Below, piece after piece: positions 45,121-53,960 of a stretch of 64,000 bases of DNA. Within the stretch, counting starts at the first letter, position 1; each line of letters opens with the position of its first letter. Under the pieces are notes generated by a model. The model was given only the letters and a program-made list of their open reading frames with translations, did no database searches and was not told where the DNA came from. The stretch is from Nocardia uniformis NBRC 13702 (GTDB lineage: Bacteria; Actinomycetota; Actinomycetes; Mycobacteriales; Mycobacteriaceae), in the NCBI RefSeq assembly GCF_001613345.1, contig NZ_BDCE01000086.1:1-64000 (forward strand), written 5' to 3'. The position numbers and the translations under genes were made by a program.

Positions 45121-46104
45121 GTGCGGATTGGGCAACAACCCGGTGGGGGGCACGGTTCCTCCGGAACGGTGCTGGCCGACCGCGTGACGGGTACCGGGCC
45201 GCTGTCGGCGGGCGTGCGGCGCGTACTCGCCTACATCGCGCTCACCAAACCTCGCGTAATCGAGTTGCTGCTCGTAGCGACCATCCCCACCATGCTGCTG
45301 GCCGACCGCGGCCACGCCGACCTCGGCCTGATTCTGGCCACCCTGTTCGGTGGCTGGATGGGTGCGGCGAGCGCGAACACACTCAATTGCGTCGCCGACG
45401 CCGATATCGACAAGGTGATGAAGCGGACATCCAAGCGTCCGCTCGCGCGGGAGGCCGTGCCGACCCGCAATGCCGCCATCTTCGGTATCGCCCTGGGGCT
45501 GGGATCGTTCGCATGGCTGTGGTGGCAGGCGAATCTGCTCAGCGGTGCGCTGGTGGTGGCGACGATCCTGTTCTACGTCTTCGTCTATACCCTCGGCCTC
45601 AAGCGCCGTACCTCGCAGAATGTGGTGTGGGGCGGCGCGGCCGGTTGTATGCCCGTCCTGGTCGGTTGGTCCGCGGTGACCGGTTCGATCGCTTGGCCCG
45701 CCGTCGCGCTGTTCGCGGTGATCTTCTTCTGGACGCCGCCGCACACCTGGGCGCTGGCCATGCGCTACAAGGAGGACTACCGCGCCGCCGGTGTCCCCAT
45801 GCTGCCGGTGGTCGCCACCGAGCAGGAAGTCACCAAGCAGATCGTCATCTACACCTGGCTCACCGTGCTGGCCACCCTCGCGCTGGTCCCCGCCGCCGGT
45901 GTGATCTACGCGGCAACGGCTCTGGTCGCGGGCGCCTGGTTCCTGCTCATGGCGCATCAGCTGTATTCGGGTGTGCGCCGGGGCGAATCGGTGAAGCCGC
46001 TGCGGCTGTTCCTGCAGTCCAACAACTATCTGGCCGTCGTATTCTGCGGCCTGGCCGTGGACGCGGTCCTGGGCTGGACCACCATCGGCGACTTCCTGTC
46101 CTGA
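45121..46104 (+). CDS. ctaB: protoheme IX farnesyltransferase (heme O synthase)
   Basis: A 327-residue membrane enzyme that adds farnesyl to heme b to make heme O for cytochrome aa3 oxidase. UbiA-family motifs: [22 protein letters not shown] (first Asp-rich motif, N-x-x-x-D-x-x-x-D) and [13 protein letters not shown] (second). Nine or so hydrophobic segments are visible. GTG 45121 has GAGGAG 5 bp upstream; the upstream open frame is not supported. It converges with the antiporter operon after 3 bp. Confidence 0.96.
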
Positions 46105-46107
46105 CGC

Positions 46108-47784
46108 TCAGAGCAGCGAGAAGAGCAGGACGAGACCGAGGGCGATCGACAGCCACCACACCGTGGTGCCGGTCGACCACAGTTCGGCGAACCGGCCGTC
46201 GGGGCGCAGTGGGCGCGCCGCCTTGGCGCGCAGGACCGCCACGCGCTCACGAGGTAGGGCCGCGCGGATACCGGCCACACCCGCTAGTGCGGTACGCCAC
46301 AGGTACGGCGCACTCTTGCGGTACAGCACGTCGGCGTCGAGGTTCACCGACCGCAGCTCCGGCGGGTACCGGCCGGTCCGAATCAATACCGTGAACGCCA
46401 GTGCCGCGAATATCAACAGCTGCAACTGATTCACCACGTGCGCGGTCGTATACGGCGAGTAGTCCACCGCGAACGGCAAGATGTTGTACAGCAGCCCGGG
46501 GACAATGCCGATCACCAGGCACGCCGCGGCCGACAGACCCATCGCCACCCGCATATTGATCGGCGCCTCGGCCACCCGGTGCCCGCGGTCGCGTCCGAAG
46601 AACGCGATGTACGGGATCTTGATCCCCGTATGCAGCAGTACACCCACCGAGGAGAGCAGCAGTACCAGCCAGAGCACCAACCGATGCTCCTGTCCGGCGG
46701 CATCCATGATCATCGACTTGGTGGCGAATCCGGAGAACAACGGAACCGCCGCCGTCGACGCGGCCCCGATCATGCAGAACACCGCGGTCTGCGGCATCGA
46801 CCGGTACAGCCCACCCAATTCCGAACCCTTGATGGTGCCCACGCGGAACAGCACCGCCCCCATCGCCATGAACAGCAGGCTCTTGTACAGGATGTGCGCG
46901 AAGGCGTGCGCCACCGCGCCATTGACGCCGAGTTCGCCACCGATGCCGATGCCCACGACGATGAAACCCAGCTGATTGATCAGGCTGTAGACCAGCACCC
47001 TGCGCAGATCGTTCTCGATAAGGGCGTAGAAGATCGGGAATACCGCCATGACCGCGCCGACCCAGACAAGCAGCTCGGTGTCGGCGAATCCCCGGGCGAG
47101 GACATAGATCGCGAACTTGGTCGTGAAGGTCGACAGGATAACGGTCCCCACGACACCGGCTTCGGGATAGATATCGGGCAGCCAGGCGTGTACCACCGGG
47201 AACGCGGCCTTGATGCCGACCGCGAAGAGAATCAAGCCGCCCGAGAAGCCATCCAACCCAATGTATTCGAATGCCAGGCCATGCCCGTCCCGCACCCACA
47301 GCGCGATACCCGCCAGCAGCAGGATGCCCGACAGCACCTGCACCACCAGGTACCGCTGCCCGGCGCGGAAGCTGCGGTCGGTACCACGCGCGAAAACCAG
47401 TACCACCGAGGCGATACCCACCAGCTCCCAGCAGATGAACAGCGTCAACAGGTCCCCCGCCAGCACCCCGCCAACGGCCGCGCCCGCGTACGCCAGGGTC
47501 GCGATCTGTTGCATCGGCCGATGCTCATGCAGCGAGTAGACGAGGCCCAGGCAGGCGGCGATCAGGAAGACGGTGGCGAATACCCGCCCGAGGGCGTCGA
47601 CGCGCATTGGTTCGAGGGTGAGCCCGAATACCTCGAAGGTCCCGGCGCTGCCCTCGGGCAGTGTCCACAGCAATACCAGCGCCACCACCGGAAGCGCGAG
47701 CATCCACACCGTCCGCCACCGGCCCCGTAACAGCGGCACCGGCAGCGCGCCCAGCAGCAGTATCCACGCGGGGTCAGCGAGCAT
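46108..47784 (-). CDS. ND5/NuoL-like antiporter subunit of the Mrp/Mbh-like operon
   Basis: A 558-residue membrane protein with about 14 hydrophobic segments of the NuoL/NuoM/MrpA-D antiporter type: ELVGIASVVLVFARGTD with the conserved Glu, FAVGIKAAFPVVHAWLPDIYPEA with the proton-path Lys, and VYSLINQLGFIVVGIG. It is the last gene of the operon, overlaps the preceding small gene by 11 bp, and converges with ctaB. The C-terminal about 110 residues (YRKSAPYLWRTALAGVAGIRAAL) resemble the tail of NuoL/HyfB-like subunits. Start ATG 47784; the 29-codon extension upstream overlaps the small gene too far. Confidence 0.9.
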   Translation of the reverse strand: MLADPAWILLLGALPVPLLRGRWRTVWMLALPVVALVLLWTLPEGSAGTFEVFGLTLEPMRVDALGRVFATVFLIAACLGLVYSLHEHRPMQQIATLAYAGAAVGGVLAGDLLTLFICWELVGIASVVLVFARGTDRSFRAGQRYLVVQVLSGILLLAGIALWVRDGHGLAFEYIGLDGFSGGLILFAVGIKAAFPVVHAWLPDIYPEAGVVGTVILSTFTTKFAIYVLARGFADTELLVWVGAVMAVFPIFYALIENDLRRVLVYSLINQLGFIVVGIGIGGELGVNGAVAHAFAHILYKSLLFMAMGAVLFRVGTIKGSELGGLYRSMPQTAVFCMIGAASTAAVPLFSGFATKSMIMDAAGQEHRLVLWLVLLLSSVGVLLHTGIKIPYIAFFGRDRGHRVAEAPINMRVAMGLSAAACLVIGIVPGLLYNILPFAVDYSPYTTAHVVNQLQLLIFAALAFTVLIRTGRYPPELRSVNLDADVLYRKSAPYLWRTALAGVAGIRAALPRERVAVLRAKAARPLRPDGRFAELWSTGTTVWWLSIALGLVLLFSLL

Positions 47785-48034
47785 CGTCGTCCCCGGGTTC
47801 GTAGTAGTCCTCGTCGCGGCGCAGCACCCGCCGCAATTGCTTGGCCACGAGCACCAGCGCGAAGCTGACACCGAAACCGAACAGGCCGTAGAAGCCGAAC
47901 ACCCGCTCCACCCCGAAGTGCGGATGTTTGACGTACACGAGATCGGCGAGGAACAGCACTACGCCGATCCCGGCCAGCGCGTACACCAGCCGCGTGACAT
48001 TGCCCGGAATATCGAGCCAGCGTGGGTCTTTCAC
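47774..48034 (-). CDS. small two-helix membrane protein of the antiporter operon
   Basis: An 86-residue protein with two hydrophobic helices (LVYALAGIGVVLFLADLVYV and VFGFYGLFGFGVSFALVLVA) and a charged tail DEDYYEPGDDDAR. GTG 48034 overlaps the stop of the D-type subunit (GTGA), and its own stop overlaps the next start by 11 bp, so it is translationally coupled on both sides. I do not recognise it as a standard Mrp subunit; it may be an accessory or assembly subunit specific to this operon type. Confidence 0.75.
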   Translation of the reverse strand: MKDPRWLDIPGNVTRLVYALAGIGVVLFLADLVYVKHPHFGVERVFGFYGLFGFGVSFALVLVAKQLRRVLRRDEDYYEPGDDDAR

Positions 48035-49488
48035 GTCAGCATCCCCAGTCGATCGACGAGCAGGGGAGCGGTGAAGAACAGGGCGACGCAACCGGCCGCG
48101 GTCAGCACGGGCGGGGCCACCACGGTCCACGGGGCCGCCCCGTGGGCCACCGGCTGCGCGGGTGTCCGGAAGAATCCCCGCACCACGATCGGCATGAGAT
48201 ACCCCAGTGCCAGCAGGGTCCCGACCGCGAGCACTCCGATCATGACGCGCTGTTGGGCGTCCGCGGCACCCAGCAGCAGGAGCCATTTACTCCACATACC
48301 GCCCGTCGGGGGGAGCCCGACAATCGATAGCGCGGCCACCGTGAACGCACCGAAGGTCCAGGGCATCATCCGGCCGAGCCCATCCAGGTCGCTGACCGAA
48401 TTGCGGCCGGTAGCCACGAAAATCGCACCGGCGCAGAAGAACAGCGTGATCTTGCCGAACGCATGGGTGACCAGGTGCAGGGAGCCTCCGGCCAGCGCGA
48501 GGTCGGTGGCCAGGGTCGCGGCCAGCACGATATAGGCCAGCTGACTCACCGTCGAATACGCCAGCCGACGTTTCAGGTTGTCCGATCGGAGCGCGATCAC
48601 ACCGGCCGTTATCAGGGTGAACGCCGCCACCCACATCATCGGTTTCGCGATACCGCCGGCGGTGAGAGTATCGAGCCCGAATACGTAGATCGCGACCTTC
48701 AGTACCGCGAAACCGCCTGCCTTGACCACCGCGACGGCGTGCAGGAGCGCCGAGACCGGTGTCGGCGCGACCATCGCCGCGGGCAGCCAGCGATGGAACG
48801 GCATCAGCGCCGCCTTGCCGATTCCGAACAGGTACAGCGCGAACAGCACCGTCAGTGTGACCGGCCCCGCCTGTCCGGCCAGCAGACCGCCCGCGCGAAA
48901 GTCGGTGGTGCCCGCCAACTGCCAGGTCCAGATGATGGCGGGCAGGAGAAGGCCGATCGATGTCGTCAACAGCAGCGCCAGGTATACGCGCACGCCACGG
49001 CGGCTGACCAGCCCGCCCTGATGGGCGACCAGCGGCCACGTCGCCAGCGTGAGCGCCTCGTACCCGATGAACAGCGTAATCAGGTTGTCCGACAGGGCGA
49101 TCCACATGGTGGCGCCGATCGCGATCGCGAAGAAGGCATAGAACCGCGTCTGGTGCGGCTGGTTCGTACTTCGCATGTATCCGATCGAGAAGACCGTCGT
49201 CAGCGGCCACAGCACCGCGGCGACGGACGCGAACAGCAGACCCAGCGGCTCTACCTCGAATCCCAATGTCAGGCCCGGCAGCCAGTCCCACAGCCGGAAC
49301 TCCATATGGTCGTCGACCCGTGGCCACAAGCTGAGCGTCAGGACCGCCAGTGCGACACCGGTGACCAGGGACGCTGCCTCTCGCGGATTGGGGCGTCCGC
49401 GCAGCGCGGCCACGGCCGCCGCGCCGATCAACGGCAACAACACCAGGACGGGTAGGGCGAATGCCTGACCGGGGCCGGTCCAGCTCAT
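48031..49488 (-). CDS. second MrpD-type cation/proton antiporter subunit
   Basis: A 485-residue membrane protein of the NuoM/MrpD family. Key features: FIGYEALTLATWPLVAHQGG with the conserved Glu in helix 5, LFGIGKAALMPFHRWLPAAMVAPTPVSALLHAVAVVKAGGF with the typical P-x-H-x-W-L-P and A-x-x-A-P-x-x-V-S-A motif, and SVSQLAYIVLAA. ATG 49488 is chosen (GGAGG 8 bp upstream). It follows another MrpD-type gene by 1 bp and is followed by a small coupled membrane protein. Confidence 0.92.
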   Translation of the reverse strand: MSWTGPGQAFALPVLVLLPLIGAAAVAALRGRPNPREAASLVTGVALAVLTLSLWPRVDDHMEFRLWDWLPGLTLGFEVEPLGLLFASVAAVLWPLTTVFSIGYMRSTNQPHQTRFYAFFAIAIGATMWIALSDNLITLFIGYEALTLATWPLVAHQGGLVSRRGVRVYLALLLTTSIGLLLPAIIWTWQLAGTTDFRAGGLLAGQAGPVTLTVLFALYLFGIGKAALMPFHRWLPAAMVAPTPVSALLHAVAVVKAGGFAVLKVAIYVFGLDTLTAGGIAKPMMWVAAFTLITAGVIALRSDNLKRRLAYSTVSQLAYIVLAATLATDLALAGGSLHLVTHAFGKITLFFCAGAIFVATGRNSVSDLDGLGRMMPWTFGAFTVAALSIVGLPPTGGMWSKWLLLLGAADAQQRVMIGVLAVGTLLALGYLMPIVVRGFFRTPAQPVAHGAAPWTVVAPPVLTAAGCVALFFTAPLLVDRLGMLT

Positions 49489-49489
49489 G

Positions 49490-50965
49490 TCACTCACCTC
49501 CCGTCAGGAGGAAGTCCGCGGCGCGCTCGGCCAGCCCGGCGGAGATCGTCGCGTCCACTCCGAGATACACCGATAGCGCGACCAGCATCCACATGGCGAT
49601 GGCCATGGTCCGGGGTACCGGTCGCCTCGTGGGGGTCTCGAGCGGTGCGTGAAACCAGGCGGCCTCGACAATGCGCCCCACATAGACCATCGCCAGCAGC
49701 GAACTCACCAGCACGGCGACCAGCACCAGCACCTGGCCCTGCTCGATCAGCGCGGTGGCGAGCGCCCACTTGGCGACGAATCCGGCCGTGAACGGGAGTC
49801 CCACCAGCCCCGCCCCGGTGATGACGATCGCGCCGAAGGTCCACGGCATGGTGCGCGCCAACCCGGAGAGGTTCTCCAACCGCACCGCACCCAGCCGCAG
49901 CACCAAGATTCCGGCGGCCGCGAACAGCGCGCCCTTGGTCACCGAGTGCCCGATCATCTGGAGGTACGACGCGGTGAGCCCGGCTGTCGTCGCAAGACTG
50001 AATCCCGCGACGATATAACCGATTTGGGCGACACTGGACCATGCGAGCAGGTACTTGAGATCGGTCTGAAAACACGCAATGGCGGATCCGACCACCATGC
50101 CCAGGCATGCCAGCACCAATCCGATGACGCCGATCGGCATTATTCCGAACACCAGCGCCGTCCCGAAAGTGGTGAACGCCAGTCGGATAAAGAGATAGAT
50201 CGCCACCTTCGTGCCGGTGGCGGACAGGAACACCGACACCGCCGACGGCGCCTCCGCGTACGCACCCGGCAACCAGCTGTGCAGCGGGAACACCGCCATC
50301 TTCACCGCCAGACCGACGAAGACGAACGCCACCGCGGCGGTCAGCGCGCGGTTTCCGTAGATCTCGGGCAGCCGAGTGGCGAGGTCGGCCATATTGAGCG
50401 ACCCCGTCACCGAATAGGCCAGGCCGATGCCGATCAGAATGAATACCGCGCCGATGGAGCCCACGATCAGATACTGAAACGCGGCCAGCAGCGCTCGCCG
50501 CCTCCTGCCCATCGCGATCAGCGCGTACGACGACAGGGACGCGATCTCGATGAATACGAACGCGTTGAACGCGTCACCGGTGGCGGTGATACCCAACAGT
50601 CCGGTCAGGACGAGACACAGGCAGGCGTAGACGAGCGGAATACGCGAGCTCTCGATCTCCGTGACCAGATTGCGTTTGCTGTAGATCGCGACGATTACCG
50701 CGATACCCGAAACGAGCAGCAGCAGTGGCGTATTGAACGGCGCGATCACGTACTCGATACCGACCGGTGCGTCCCAGCCGCCCATCGCGTAGCGCACCAC
50801 CTCGCCGTCGGCGACCCGCACCGCCAATACGGTCGCGCAGGCCAGCGCACCGCAGGCCACCAGGAGAAACGACAGCCACGCCGCCCGCGCCGACCTGGTC
50901 AACGCGCACAGGGGTGCGCCCAGCAGGGGGATGATCACCTGTAGGGCAGGCACCTGATCGGTCAT
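49490..50965 (-). CDS. mnhD: MrpD-type monovalent cation/H+ antiporter subunit
   Basis: A 491-residue membrane protein of the MrpD/NuoM type with about 14 hydrophobic segments. The proton-path region reads FVFVGLAVKMAVFPLHSWLPGAYAEAPSAVSVFLSATGTKVAIY, and VFIEIASLSSYALIAMG includes the conserved Glu. It overlaps the C subunit by four bases. Proximity to B, C, E, F and G subunits identifies it as the D subunit of a group 3 antiporter, exchanging Na+ or K+ for H+. Confidence 0.93.
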   Translation of the reverse strand: MTDQVPALQVIIPLLGAPLCALTRSARAAWLSFLLVACGALACATVLAVRVADGEVVRYAMGGWDAPVGIEYVIAPFNTPLLLLVSGIAVIVAIYSKRNLVTEIESSRIPLVYACLCLVLTGLLGITATGDAFNAFVFIEIASLSSYALIAMGRRRRALLAAFQYLIVGSIGAVFILIGIGLAYSVTGSLNMADLATRLPEIYGNRALTAAVAFVFVGLAVKMAVFPLHSWLPGAYAEAPSAVSVFLSATGTKVAIYLFIRLAFTTFGTALVFGIMPIGVIGLVLACLGMVVGSAIACFQTDLKYLLAWSSVAQIGYIVAGFSLATTAGLTASYLQMIGHSVTKGALFAAAGILVLRLGAVRLENLSGLARTMPWTFGAIVITGAGLVGLPFTAGFVAKWALATALIEQGQVLVLVAVLVSSLLAMVYVGRIVEAAWFHAPLETPTRRPVPRTMAIAMWMLVALSVYLGVDATISAGLAERAADFLLTGGE

Positions 50966-51333
50966 GGGGCCCCACTGTCGGCGCCGGTCGCGTCGCGTTC
51001 GAGAATCTCGCTCTCCTCGATCGATCCGTACGCCTCGAAAATGCGCACGGCCAGCGCGAGGCCCAAGGCCGTGGTGGCCACCCCGACCACGATCGCGGTG
51101 AGGATCAGTACGTGCGGCAACGGATTCGAGTACACGGTCACCGCATCGTCGCGCACGATCGGTGCTCGGCCGTTGTCGACCTTGCCGACACTGATGTAGA
51201 GCATGAACACCGACACCTGGAAAAGGCTCAGCCCGATCAACTTCTTCAAGAGATTGCCGTGGCTGATCACCGTGTACAGCCCGATCATCATGAGCGCGAA
51301 GATGAACAGGTACACATAGTTCGGCGCCGTCAT
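50962..51333 (-). CDS. mnhC: MrpC/NuoK-type antiporter subunit
   Basis: A 123-residue three-helix protein of the NuoK/MrpC family (FIFALMMIGLYTVISHGNLLKKLIGLSLFQVSVFMLYISVG, then PLPHVLILTAIVVGVATTALGLALAVRI). ATG 51333 overlaps the B gene stop (ATGA), and its own stop overlaps mnhD by four bases. The C-terminal tail carries the charged EAYGSIEESEILERD as in actinobacterial members. Confidence 0.94.
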   Translation of the reverse strand: MTAPNYVYLFIFALMMIGLYTVISHGNLLKKLIGLSLFQVSVFMLYISVGKVDNGRAPIVRDDAVTVYSNPLPHVLILTAIVVGVATTALGLALAVRIFEAYGSIEESEILERDATGADSGAP

Positions 51334-52319
51334 CGCTTCACCCCACGACCGGAGAAGGCGAAGAAGACCGCCACCATGACCGCGGCGACCGTGACGCCGA
51401 CACCGACTTCGACGAGCAGAATCCCAAGGTGCTGACCGGCTTTCGGATTATCTGGCGAGAACCGGTCGTAGTCCAGGAAACCTCCGCCCGCGATCATGCA
51501 CGCCACCCCCACGCCGCTGTAGATGAGCACCCCGAGGGGAATCAAGCGCAGCAGCACCGTCGGCGGCACCACCCGCCGAGCGCCGCCGAGACCGAAGACC
51601 AACCCGTACAACACGATTCCGGCCGCGAAGATCACACCCGCCTGGAAGCCGCCGCCCGGCCCGTAATCACCGTGGAACAGCACATAGAACGCGAACAGCA
51701 GGATGAACGGCATGAGCATCTTGCTGATCACGCGCAGCATTCGATAGTCGGCCAGCGCCGGTTCCCGCCGTCGCCCGTTGCCGACCTGCGGCGGCCGGGT
51801 CAGCAGAAGCAGCACCGCCACGCCCGCGGCGAAGATGACGATCAGTTCGCCGAGGGTGTCATAGCCGCGGTAGCTCGCCAATACCGAGGTCACGGTATTC
51901 GGGATGCCGATATCGTCCTGGGATCGATGCAGGTACACCTGCGTCACCGGATGCTCCTGCACCGGGGTCCCGGCCCCGCCGAACTGTGGCAGATCCTGAC
52001 TCGCGTACACCAGCAGACCGCCGACGAACAGCACCGCCAGCCGACCGGGCCAGCGCCGACTGCGATCGGTCACGGTCTCCTGCGACCGGGTGATCGCCAG
52101 GACCACCAGGAACAGCACGGTACTTATCCCGACGCCGACAGCCGCCTCGGTGAAGGCCACGTCGACGGCGTCGAGCAGCACGAAAAGGCTCGCGGAGACC
52201 AGGCTGAACAGCGCCATCAGCATGGTCGCCTCATACAGGGCACGCATGCGGGCGATCGTGATCGCCGTAGCCGTCAGAATGACGAACAGCGCGATGTTGA
52301 GCACCACGAACCAGGTCAT
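51330..52319 (-). CDS. mnhB: MrpB-type subunit fused to MrpA C-terminal (DUF4040) part
   Basis: A 329-residue membrane protein with two family parts: an N-terminal DUF4040/MbhD-like region (ARMRALYEATMLMALFSLVSASLFVLLDAVDVAFTEAAVGVGIST) corresponding to the C-terminal MrpA part, then an MbhE-like and MrpB part (GDYGPGGGFQAGVIFAAGIVLYGLVFG, GILLVEVGVGVTVAAVMVAVFFAF). No full-length MrpA is in the operon. ATG 52319 overlaps the G subunit stop by four bases. This fused layout resembles archaeal Mbh/Mrp modules. Confidence 0.9.
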   Translation of the reverse strand: MTWFVVLNIALFVILTATAITIARMRALYEATMLMALFSLVSASLFVLLDAVDVAFTEAAVGVGISTVLFLVVLAITRSQETVTDRSRRWPGRLAVLFVGGLLVYASQDLPQFGGAGTPVQEHPVTQVYLHRSQDDIGIPNTVTSVLASYRGYDTLGELIVIFAAGVAVLLLLTRPPQVGNGRRREPALADYRMLRVISKMLMPFILLFAFYVLFHGDYGPGGGFQAGVIFAAGIVLYGLVFGLGGARRVVPPTVLLRLIPLGVLIYSGVGVACMIAGGGFLDYDRFSPDNPKAGQHLGILLVEVGVGVTVAAVMVAVFFAFSGRGVKR

Positions 52320-52636
52320 CGGTCCCGCTTCTGTCCGGCCCGCCACATGACCACACCGTCGCGGCGGGCGGCCTCCGCCAGCACATGGGTGGCGGTGGGT
52401 CCGGTCATCACCATGAACAGCAGGATCAGCACCAGGCGCACGGCGGTATCCCAGTCGGGGGCCTGCACCAGCAGACCGAGGATTATCAGCCCGGCACCCG
52501 CCGAATCGGTGACGCCCACGGCGTGACTACGGGTGAAGAAGTCGGGAAAACGCAGCAGCCCCAGGCCACCTGAGATTACGAAAAGACTGCCGGTGAACAG
52601 TAATACGGCACTGATGATATCGAGCAGCAGGCTCAC
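52316..52636 (-). CDS. mnhG: MrpG-type antiporter subunit
   Basis: A 106-residue three-helix protein with the family signature GGLGLLRFPDFFTRSHAVGVTDSAGAGLIILGLL (about 25-58). It couples translationally by four-base overlaps with MnhF upstream and MnhB downstream. Part of the small-subunit half (E, F, G) of group 3 cation/proton antiporters. Confidence 0.94.
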   Translation of the reverse strand: MSLLLDIISAVLLFTGSLFVISGGLGLLRFPDFFTRSHAVGVTDSAGAGLIILGLLVQAPDWDTAVRLVLILLFMVMTGPTATHVLAEAARRDGVVMWRAGQKRDR

Positions 52637-52920
52637 AGGCTTCCCCCCTCACCCTCCTGGGCCGGGGCTACCAGATCCTTGTAGTGGGTCAGCCGCAGTA
52701 CCGCGATGAGCGCCACGAAATTGACCAGTGCGTACAGCAGTGAGATATCGAGATAGTCGGGCCGGCCGGTCAGATAGCCGACCAGTGCGATGAACAGCAC
52801 CGTCTTGGTGCCGAACATATTGATCGCCAGGGTCCGGTTGTACAGCCCGGGACCGTAGAAGGCCCTGATCAGGGTCAAGACCATGGTGACGACAATGGCG
52901 GCGGTGGCGGCGAGCAGCAT
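52633..52920 (-). CDS. mnhF: MrpF-type antiporter subunit
   Basis: A 95-residue protein with three helices: VVTMVLTLIRAFYGPGLYNRTLAINMFGTKTVLFIALVGYL and YLDISLLYALVNFVALIAVLRL are the family core. ATG 52920 overlaps the mnhE stop (ATGA) and is preferred to an extension of 25 codons inside mnhE. The last residues (VAPAQEGEGGSL) are a soluble tail. Confidence 0.93.
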   Translation of the reverse strand: MLLAATAAIVVTMVLTLIRAFYGPGLYNRTLAINMFGTKTVLFIALVGYLTGRPDYLDISLLYALVNFVALIAVLRLTHYKDLVAPAQEGEGGSL

Positions 52921-53393
52921 CAGGGCGCCTCCAGCCGACGCACCTCGGCCAGCATGCGACCGGCCCGCAGCGCCTCGAGATCGGAACGCTGCCAACTGTG
53001 CACCCGGACTCCGTCCCCCACGATGTGCAGTGACAGCGTGCCCGGCGTCAGCGTGATCGAATGTCCGTAGATCACCTCACCGAGCGGCGACAGGCCGTCG
53101 GTGGGCGCGATGCCGACGGTCGGCTGCAGGTCGGGCCGGGGTAGCCAGGCTTGCCACGCCACCGAGATCGACGATTGGATCACCTGTCCACCGAGCCATA
53201 GGCAGAAGCTCGGAATGCGGGGCCACCGTTCGATTTTCGGTGTCGTCCGATCCTCGATTCCGGCGCGCCAGGCGATCAGCACCACCAGGAGCACCGACGC
53301 CGTGCCCAGTGTGAGGAGCAGCGGTGTGTAATGCCCGGACAGGATCAGCCAGAACGCCGCCAAGGTCGGGACGAGGGGAATTACTCGACGCAT
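52920..53393 (-). CDS. mnhE: MrpE-type antiporter subunit
   Basis: A 157-residue protein with two to three N-terminal hydrophobic segments (VPTLAAFWLILSGHYTPLLLTLGTASVLLVVLIAWRA) and a soluble C-terminus containing VIYGHSITLTPGTLSLHIVGDGVRVHSW, the MrpE signature. First of the overlapping antiporter genes (E-F-G-B-C-D). A CBS-like open frame lies 30 bp upstream in the same direction. Confidence 0.93.
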   Translation of the reverse strand: MRRVIPLVPTLAAFWLILSGHYTPLLLTLGTASVLLVVLIAWRAGIEDRTTPKIERWPRIPSFCLWLGGQVIQSSISVAWQAWLPRPDLQPTVGIAPTDGLSPLGEVIYGHSITLTPGTLSLHIVGDGVRVHSWQRSDLEALRAGRMLAEVRRLEAP

Positions 53394-53423
53394 CGAATCA
53401 CTCTCCCGGTCGGATCGGCGATA

Positions 53424-53813
53424 TCAGCGATTGGCGGGGATGTCTCCGAGCACACGCCCCGCGGTGACTTCGCCGAGGACGTGGTTTCGATCGACGACGG
53501 CGACGATGGGGGAGTATGTCCGCATTGTTTTCGAGGCTACAGCCAAGATCACGTCGTACGGCCCGAAGATTGCCGGTTTCGCCGGGATTCTGGGCAGCCG
53601 ATCGCGCACGGTGCGGCCGGGCGGGCGTGCATCGCGGCCCCGCGCCACGATGTCGGGAAGTCGCTGGACGGTGACCAGTCGGACGGTCTTCGGAGCGGCG
53701 GTGCGGGGGGTGGTCGAGGGCGGTAATCCTCGGCAAGATCGCGGGCGTGCATCGTATCCAGCCTCATTAGTGCCAGCGAAGGCTGAGTGGTGGGCGGGAA
53801 GTGTCGCAATCAT
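53424..53813 (-). CDS. possible CBS-domain protein at the head of the antiporter operon
   Basis: About 129 residues. The C-terminal about 60 (TVRDRLPRIPAKPAIFGPYD...VAVVDRNHVLGEVTAGRVLG) read like one CBS motif with a typical final V-V-D-x-x-x-V-L-G-x-V-T strand-turn; the N-terminal half is Arg/Pro-rich and unclear, so it may be a partial or degenerate gene with only one of two CBS halves. CBS proteins sense adenine nucleotides or cations, which would fit an antiporter operon. The start is uncertain (ATG 53813 or an earlier codon at 53852). Confidence 0.4.
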   Translation of the reverse strand: MIATLPAHHSAFAGTNEAGYDARPRSCRGLPPSTTPRTAAPKTVRLVTVQRLPDIVARGRDARPPGRTVRDRLPRIPAKPAIFGPYDVILAVASKTMRTYSPIVAVVDRNHVLGEVTAGRVLGDIPANR

Positions 53814-53960
53814 AACGAATTGATGCCCGGATTGTCTGGACTTCCTTGGCATTCAGCTAAAGCCAGGCATCCGCTCGCTCGGCCGGAATCCGCCGCCCAG
53901 CACCGGCCCGGTCGATCATGCCGACCGGGGCGTATTGCCCCGATCGCACCGCGCGCCGGG

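Follow-up and report, generated by a model that had tools for sequence, protein, structure and literature searches.

A probable stand-alone group 3 Mrp-type antiporter operon with three antiporter-like subunits in Nocardia uniformis

On the minus strand of a 64,000-base-pair (bp) stretch of the Nocardia uniformis NBRC 13702 genome (the first 64,000 positions of contig NZ_BDCE01000086.1, referred to here as the window), nine tightly packed genes run from position 53393 to 46108 in the order mrpE-F-G-B-C-D1-D2-small-D3, with MbhD, MbhE and MnhB fused in the B gene. On sequence evidence, we interpret this operon as encoding a stand-alone group 3 Mrp-type (CPA3) cation/proton antiporter that has three antiporter-like subunits, not two, and put the probability of this interpretation at about 0.75. 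It is supported by a full cation module (E, F, G, MbhD-MbhE-MnhB and C) and three separate antiporter subunits. The operon is real and well conserved, of a known kind, and its type is widespread.

Gene content and order

Pfam and NCBIfam models, together with the sequence itself, place E, F, G, B and C subunits and three Proton_antipo_M proteins inside the one operon. The cation module consists of mrpE (52920..53393; 157 amino acids (aa); PF01899, 72 bits), mrpF (52633..52920; 95 aa from the ATG at 52920; PF04066, 57 bits, scored on a longer TTG frame), mrpG (52316..52636; 106 aa, GTG start; PF03334, 90 bits), mrpB fused to MbhD (DUF4040) and MbhE (51330..52319; 329 aa from the ATG at 52319; PF13244, PF20501 and PF04039; NF009161, 375 bits, cut-off 272) and mrpC (50962..51333; 123 aa; PF00420, 80 bits; best solved match MbsG, 6u8y_G). 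Judged from its sequence, the fused gene is the C-terminal part of MrpA joined to MrpB. It is followed, after mrpC, by D1, an MrpD-type antiporter subunit (49490..50965; 491 aa; PF00361, 195 bits), D2, an antiporter subunit related to NuoL, the N-terminal part of MrpA (MrpA-N) and HyfD (48031..49488; 485 aa; PF00361, 175 bits), a small subunit with no family name and two predicted membrane helices (47774..48034; 86 aa from the GTG at 48034) and D3, an antiporter subunit with a tail formed by transmembrane helix (TM) 15, a further helix and TM16 (46108..47784; 558 aa from the ATG at 47784; NF009310, 663 bits, cut-off 564). The best NCBIfam models for D1 (PRK12662, 446 bits) and D2 (PRK08375.1-1, 495 bits) score under their cut-offs of 700 and 663, respectively, and the best for D3 (PRK12668, 663 bits) scores over its cut-off of 564.

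Read from the sequence, E and F share 1 bp, D1 and D2 are separated by 1 bp, the F/G, G/B, B/C, C/D1 and D2/small junctions are 4-bp overlaps, and small and D3 overlap by 11 bp. All nine frames are open, with a third-position G+C of 0.78-0.87. A preliminary description of this DNA, made from the letters alone, had reported this gene order, the B/DUF4040 fusion, near-contiguous packing, three NuoL/M-like subunits and an 86-residue two-helix protein, and all of these were found as described, with overlaps of 1-11 bp or a 1-bp gap at all junctions. PF00361 has nine matches in the genome, in three clusters, and, as the other two clusters group with NuoL/M/N, this operon is the only Mrp of the genome.

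The absence of MrpA, also part of that description, holds for the gene but not fully for its N-terminal half. There is no mrpA in the operon, the three PF00361 proteins are separate and none is fused to DUF4040, and Pfam finds no fusion of a NuoL-like N-terminal part to a DUF4040 C-terminal part, the hallmark of MrpA, anywhere in the window. However, D2 is sister to a group that includes MrpA-N (see below), and an MrpA-N-like subunit is therefore not really absent.

Antiporter-like subunits

The antiporter-like subunits were placed in a tree of 61 rows, in which branch values are given as two figures and branches above the support threshold are starred. D1, D2 and D3 form three separate clades (100/99, 100/100 and 100/100), each spanning several phyla, and in all three the sequence from the window adjoins Actinomadura. 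The D1 clade stands beside the MrpD clade, where the deep forks are weak, D2 is sister to the group of NuoL, MrpA-N and Escherichia coli HyfD (97/93), and D3 joins MbsH' (92/92, unstarred). None of the Hyf rows falls within the supported D1, D2 or D3 clades; their branches are long and their placement is unsure. Pairwise scoring against chains of known structure puts MbsH and MbhH closest to D1, ahead of MrpD; for D2 the order is NuoL and NdhF, then MbhH, and for D3 it is MbsH', then MrpA, MbsH and MbhH.

Each of the three subunits keeps the TM5 Glu, TM7 Lys, TM8 Lys and TM12 Lys of the proton half-channel. All four sites are kept in 65/65 aligned rows of D1 and in 76-77 of the 77 rows of D2, the remainder being gaps. 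For D3, the counts are 82/82 (Glu120), 71/82 (Lys192), 82/82 (Lys223) and 81/82 (Lys356). The predicted model of D3 has the antiporter fold with a mean predicted local distance difference test score (pLDDT) of 84.7, confidence being low from about residue 471, tail included. It aligns to MbsH' over residues 1-516 (Z 42.7, root-mean-square deviation 4.3) and to NuoL over 1-529 (Z 44.0, root-mean-square deviation 8.3), with a partial match of the C-terminal tail to both. As VIA-align gives similar Z values, about 41-44, for MrpD, NuoL, NuoN and MbsH', the fold does not decide which of these is the nearest relative of D3; Foldseek ranked MrpA chains first.

Cation module

His132 of MrpE, the proposed cation entry, is kept in 61/61 aligned rows and His38 of MrpG in 67/68. 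The B protein of the window contains DVAFTEA at residue 53 and YRGYDTLGE at residue 150. The former is of the MBS type, DVAxTEA (DVAMTEA in MBS, DVAIAEA in MBH), and not of the MrpA form, DVALTQL. In its entirety, B matches MrpA of Dietzia (65.4 bits) and MbsE (64.8 bits) about equally well. DVAxTEA is present in 66 and DT(L/M)GE in 54 of the 125 ORFs (open reading frames) called as MrpB, many of which hold only one domain. By our own assignment, the Glu of the first motif would be the counterpart of E69 in MBH, and the exit motif that of D792/E796 in Mrp; the roles of these residues are described in PMC7419157.

When MrpC is aligned with the solved chains, Ser36, His37 and His40 of Mrp are replaced by Gln39, Val40 and Phe43. 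The column of Gln39 holds Asp37 in MBH and a Glu in MBS, and His74 takes the place of the Gln in the PLPQ/PIPQ motif of the solved chains. Gln39 is found in 70/70 rows, Phe43 in 57/70 and His74 in 66/70, and among the residues listed for these 70 rows there is no His at the columns of the cation-site His37 and His40 of group 1/2 Mrp.

Distribution and conservation of gene order

A scan of named contigs with the D3 alignment matched at least 590 stretches, of which 589 were confirmed, and the best 80 of these 589 were taken as loci for comparison. The full nine-gene set is present in 65 of the best 80. Sorted by ORF start, 35 of the 80 have exactly the order E-F-G-B-B-C-D1-D2-small-D3 and 13 have the same order with a single B; in others the order is disturbed by ORF starts that overlap, by broken frames or by an additional cluster, and the rest are missing some genes, several being on short contigs. 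In one locus, L060, both D1 and D2 are broken into multiple frames, which may be due to sequencing or assembly errors. According to the record titles, the best 80 loci are mostly from Alpha- and Gammaproteobacteria, the others being from Beta- and Deltaproteobacteria, Nitrospirota, Planctomycetota and Gemmatimonadota, with three from Actinomycetota. The best matches among them are from two Actinomadura (62 % and 61 % identity in D3). A divergent cold-shock-domain-like gene and a thioesterase-like gene (both named by eye) recur 5' of mrpE in seven alphaproteobacterial loci (L062, L065, L070, L080, L089, L106 and L109).

Of 296 genomes in a sample of the phylum, 15, that of N. uniformis included, and 63 of 289 in a sample of the class around Parvibaculum reach the PRK12668 cut-off. 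Five further alphaproteobacterial loci all have the same E-to-D3 order and the small gene. Fifteen actinomycetotal regions (L034-L048) were fetched by genome search, and 11 carry the gene set, L034 and L035 in the order of the window and nine in the rotated order D2-D3-E-F-G-B-C-D1. The other four are short contigs or, in L046, contain only D-type subunits. Five of the rotated loci (L037, L039, L040, L041 and L044) adjoin an MrpA-like gene and a second E-F-G set, though not every piece was called in each, and four of these MrpA-like proteins fell with MrpA in the 61-row tree.

The rhizobial 'green complex I', as presented in PMC9040806, was considered as the source of the weaker alphaproteobacterial D3 matches near 485 bits and was rejected at the loci examined. 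Two of the three genomes with a D3 match of about 485 bits (G719 and G493), as well as G566, G501 and G517, show the genes from E to D3 in order, a small gene included, and searching 20-kilobase (kb) stretches of these five genomes with E. coli Nuo queries revealed nothing beyond the operon.

Small subunit

All 80 named loci have a single match to the small gene, adjacent to D3; because these loci were picked by D3 similarity, this count is silent on the small gene elsewhere. A profile search found it between D2 and D3 in the five further alphaproteobacterial loci, divergent ones included (E 9.4e-24 to 4.3e-4), and in nine of the 11 actinomycetotal loci with the gene set (E 4.8e-34 to 2.4e-4). 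The query used for the actinomycetotal regions, the 80 loci and the consensus was 85 residues long, with M put first and one N-terminal residue short; alignment A2 and the model were made with the full 86 residues. The consensus built from 81 sequences has RxEDYYD at its C-terminal end, and the AlphaFold model predicts helices at residues 10-33 and 48-70 (mean pLDDT 85.2).

No Pfam or NCBIfam match to the small protein of the window was found, and members from other loci gave mixed and mostly weak matches, with no model taking more than 6 of 79 members. As the small subunit is present in 80/80 named loci yet lies outside these models, annotation misses it. Foldseek returned no PDB match up to E 10, which does not prove a new fold, and a profile run against PDB sequences yielded no match under E 0.19.

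Probable working mode and alternatives

Group 3 Mrp is defined in PMC8415708 by the absence of mrpA and the presence of one or more copies of mrpD, and the operon fits this definition. The preliminary description had likened it instead to the ion-pumping half of Mbh/Mbs complexes. In favour of that likeness are the MBS-type MbhD motif, the best scores of C and D1 against MBS chains and the position of D3 with MbsH'; on the other side are the about equal scores of B with Dietzia MrpA and MbsE, the fit to group 3 and the position of D2. With the three subunits in three separate clades, D2 as sister to NuoL/MrpA/HyfD and D3 with MbsH' on an unstarred branch, the Mbh/Mbs-like reading is partly right. 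We conclude that the link is correct for several subunits and that the operon most likely works as a stand-alone antiporter.

In such an antiporter, the subunits would be aligned in gene order, that is, cation module, D1, D2, small and D3, with the small two-helix protein bridging D2 and D3 and the TM15-helix-TM16 tail of D3 clamping the end of the row, as in MbsH' and NuoL. According to PMC7684303, helix HL keeps antiporter-like subunits together, and complex I has three proton-pumping subunits, MBS two and MBH one. Protons entering through the row down the proton-motive force would drive cations out past a site formed by D1, B and C, so that the complex would export cations and help to control pH. 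The H+/cation ratio may exceed that of an ordinary Mrp, given three conduits for protons.

Several points weigh against the stand-alone group 3 reading. The alignment of the subunits in a row and the bridging role of the small protein are ones that we infer. The branch that joins D3 to MbsH' (92/92) is unstarred. In D3, Asn stands in for the TM7 Lys in 11 of 82 rows, and alignment A1 has this Lys replaced, as judged by eye, in all 14 other rows, which are from other Actinomycetota. MrpC is without the two His residues proposed as cation binders in Mrp, and the conserved cation-path Asp of MrpF, present in 62/67 rows, is Asn28 in the window. The same Asn is found in L049, L050, L122 and the second-cluster row of L093, among them both Actinomadura and Actinophytocola. 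Given the missing His residues and the Asn28 of MrpF, cation binding may differ or be weak, and, on sequence grounds, these changes could alter the choice of ion. The profile finds no small gene in L043 and L047, two of the 11 actinomycetotal loci. Lastly, we found no functional study or transport measurement of the three-subunit type among the open-licence PMC papers searched.

A possible, though rather unlikely, alternative is that the operon is an ordinary Mrp in effect, in which D2 replaces MrpA-N, and D3 and the small subunit only stabilize the complex, with stoichiometry and ion unchanged. The sister position of D2 to NuoL, MrpA and HyfD is what this would predict, the TM7 Lys is missing from D3 in part of the family, and the stand-alone group 3 Mrp of Pyrococcus furiosus, EFGBB'CD, which has a single D, is reported to affect pH-dependent growth and likely uses Na+ (PMC8415708). 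It is opposed by the full proton-channel set of D3, kept in 71/82 rows even at the weakest site, by the co-occurrence of D3 and the small gene in 80/80 loci (chosen by D3) and by an MrpC cation site unlike that of Mrp.

At the other extreme, the stand-alone antiporter could represent a distinct and widespread subtype, namely a nine-gene Mrp with three proton conduits, a necessary two-helix subunit, an MrpC site rebuilt around Gln39 on one helix and His74 on the following one, in place of the His and Gln of Mrp, and a different H+/cation ratio or ion. In some Alphaproteobacteria, this complex would have come to stand next to the operon of a form-II-type molybdenum hydroxylase (cox), an enzyme that might then be coupled directly to ion pumping. 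We consider this fuller proposal doubtful and put it forward only tentatively.

Possible redox partner and cox neighbourhood

It is improbable that the operon encodes the ion-pumping arm of a redox enzyme encoded elsewhere, the partner being a molybdenum hydroxylase in N. uniformis or, in Alphaproteobacteria, the form-II-type CoxSLM next door, although C, D1, D3 and the MbhD domain do resemble parts of MBH and MBS. The absence of a hydrogenase-like half, noted in the preliminary description, was borne out: PF00346 (49-kDa-type) has a single match in the genome, inside the nuo cluster, so that no redox half (hydrogenase-like large subunit) for the operon is seen by this model; PF00374 was not searched. 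The genome encodes three MoCoBD_2 proteins, all on other contigs. Another cluster of the genome (C67:154000-167000, L001) was tried as a Hyf/Hyc-type partner and rejected, as its three subunits fall with Nuo in the tree, one with NuoL (99/97), one within the clade of NuoM (100/100; 91/43 for the inner pair) and one with NuoN (99/85). This placement, and neighbours that by eye resemble NuoA/H/J/K, make it a second Nuo-like set; it is shorter than the nuo cluster and without a PF00346 match.

In four loci (L062, L079, L080 and L106), coxG-S-L-M-D-E lies directly after D3, and a partial set is found in others, while in L052 and L094 the cox genes are divergent and upstream of the operon. Pfam identifies COXG, 2Fe-2S, MoCoBD and FAD domains in these neighbouring ORFs. 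A MobA-like gene accompanies coxG-S-L-M-D-E beside the operon in Alphaproteobacteria. Of nine ORFs matching CoxL, six contain AYRGAGR, which we take to be the mark of form II CoxL, two run off the end of a contig, and the motif is missing from the long frame of L097. On contig C39 of G447 (the genome of L061), a coxL that is probably adjacent to the operon has an internal TAG, which may be a sequencing or assembly error. We found no report of a cox link, and no mention of the small subunit, among the open-licence PMC papers searched.

Co-occurrence was examined in the 289 genomes of the class sample around Parvibaculum, with D3 called at E <= 1e-120 and the coxL clade at E <= 1e-250. D3 was found in 68, the coxL clade in 105 and both in 39, where 24.7 would be expected if the two were independent, kinship being ignored. 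The two genes lie within 10 kb of each other in 12 of these 39 (12/68 carriers; G456, G451, G469, G586, G583, G627, G724, G461, G567, G580, G667 and G562), ten times on the same strand and twice on opposite strands. Together with the cox genes that directly follow D3, these figures favour a redox partner in Alphaproteobacteria. Against it, 29 of the 68 carriers have no coxL at the threshold used, and in 27 of the 39 with both, the genes are not within 10 kb, some being on different contigs. For the operon described here, cox queries at E 1e-5 matched neither the window nor any of the 15 actinomycetotal regions, and the only PF00346 match of the genome is the one in the nuo cluster. A stand-alone antiporter is the preferred reading.

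Probable acquisition by N. uniformis

The operon was probably gained by transfer in this species, the sampled relatives in the genus being without it. Only one of 150 genomes in the genus, that of the window itself, matches the D3 query at E <= 1e-60. Four of five relatives (L132-L135) have ctaB followed by the same two genes as the window; in the fifth, L131, ctaB is present but these two genes do not follow it. In three of the four, DNA similarity to the window breaks off where ctaB ends and picks up again close to the end of the following gene, and the interval between, 7.86 kb long in the window, measures 623 bp in L132, 342 bp in L134 and 191 bp in L135. The matches beyond the interval span only 28-65 bp, and in L133 the match there is not significant. 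This places the gained segment at 46096..53960, with approximate borders. In a D3 tree of 94 rows made by a quick method, the D3 of the window groups most closely with the two Actinomadura (100) within a clade of 71 rows, 62 of which are from Pseudomonadota. The G+C of the operon (0.655) is close to that of the window (0.664), and composition thus gives no extra sign of transfer. The scan for border repeats took each border on its own, so repeats shared by the two ends were outside its reach.

The preliminary description had extended the operon to 53813 and included a CBS-like frame (53424..53852, minus strand). This frame was rejected as an operon member, as it has no Pfam or NCBIfam match to E 0.1, no homologue among the ORFs of the 80 loci to E 0.01, and a third-position G+C of 0.69, a weaker codon bias, and the operon therefore ends at 53393. 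The approximately 570 bp 5' of mrpE within the gained segment (53394-53960) contain no supported gene and may hold a promoter or a decayed gene. That the gained operon is unused or decaying in this species is very improbable, for although it is found in 1/150 genomes of the genus, is preceded by a region without a supported gene and has Asn28 in MrpF, its nine frames are open with the high third-position G+C given above, the other key residues tested are intact, and its large subunits are 61-69 % identical to those of Actinomadura, which suggests purifying selection.

Comparison with known systems

Mrp, MBH, MBS and complex I differ in the number of antiporter-like subunits and in the attachment of a redox half. 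A stand-alone Mrp with three such subunits, the number in complex I, that keeps the cation module and has no redox module would allow a direct test of how the contributions of individual proton conduits sum. Three features deserve further attention: the small subunit, the changed MrpC site and the alphaproteobacterial cox neighbourhood, the last of which offers a testable clue to the function of the form II enzyme.

The operon shares with group 1/2 Mrp (PDB 7qru, 6z16 and 7d3u) the E, F, G, B and C modules, an MrpD-like D1 and a B that scores as well with Dietzia MrpA as with MBS. It differs in having no MrpA, in the replaced cation-site His residues of MrpC and in an MbhD motif that is not of the MrpA form. 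With the MBS and MBH arms (PDB 6u8y and 6cfw), as presented in PMC7684303 and PMC7419157, it has in common the DVAxTEA motif of MBS, the best scores of C and D1 against MBS chains and the grouping of D3 with MbsH'. However, it has no redox module, and its three antiporter-like subunits compare with two in MBS and one in MBH.

Closer parallels are found among published Mrp operons, each compared here through its description. In the actinobacterium Microbacterium sp. TS-1, the third cluster, mrpFGBCDDAE, of group 3, also has three large antiporter-type genes after F-G-B-C; going by gene order, its E is at the other end (PMC5703873). The Solemya velum symbiont has MrpEFGBBCDD (PMC4287430). In 'Candidatus Nitrospira alkalitolerans', two NuoM/NuoL-like genes, regarded by the authors as extra mrpA/mrpD-like genes, lie downstream of mrpD in a group 3 Mrp; unlike the operon here, that locus also has bicA and an nhaB, and the small gene does not figure in its description (PMC7784846). 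Another Nitrospira bin (L128) has the full gene set. The stand-alone mrpEFGBB'CD of P. furiosus likewise has no mrpA and no redox subunits and has the order E-F-G-B-B'-C-D (PMC8415708). Set against its published description, the operon of N. uniformis has its B-type parts joined in one gene and contains D2, the small subunit and D3 as extra components.

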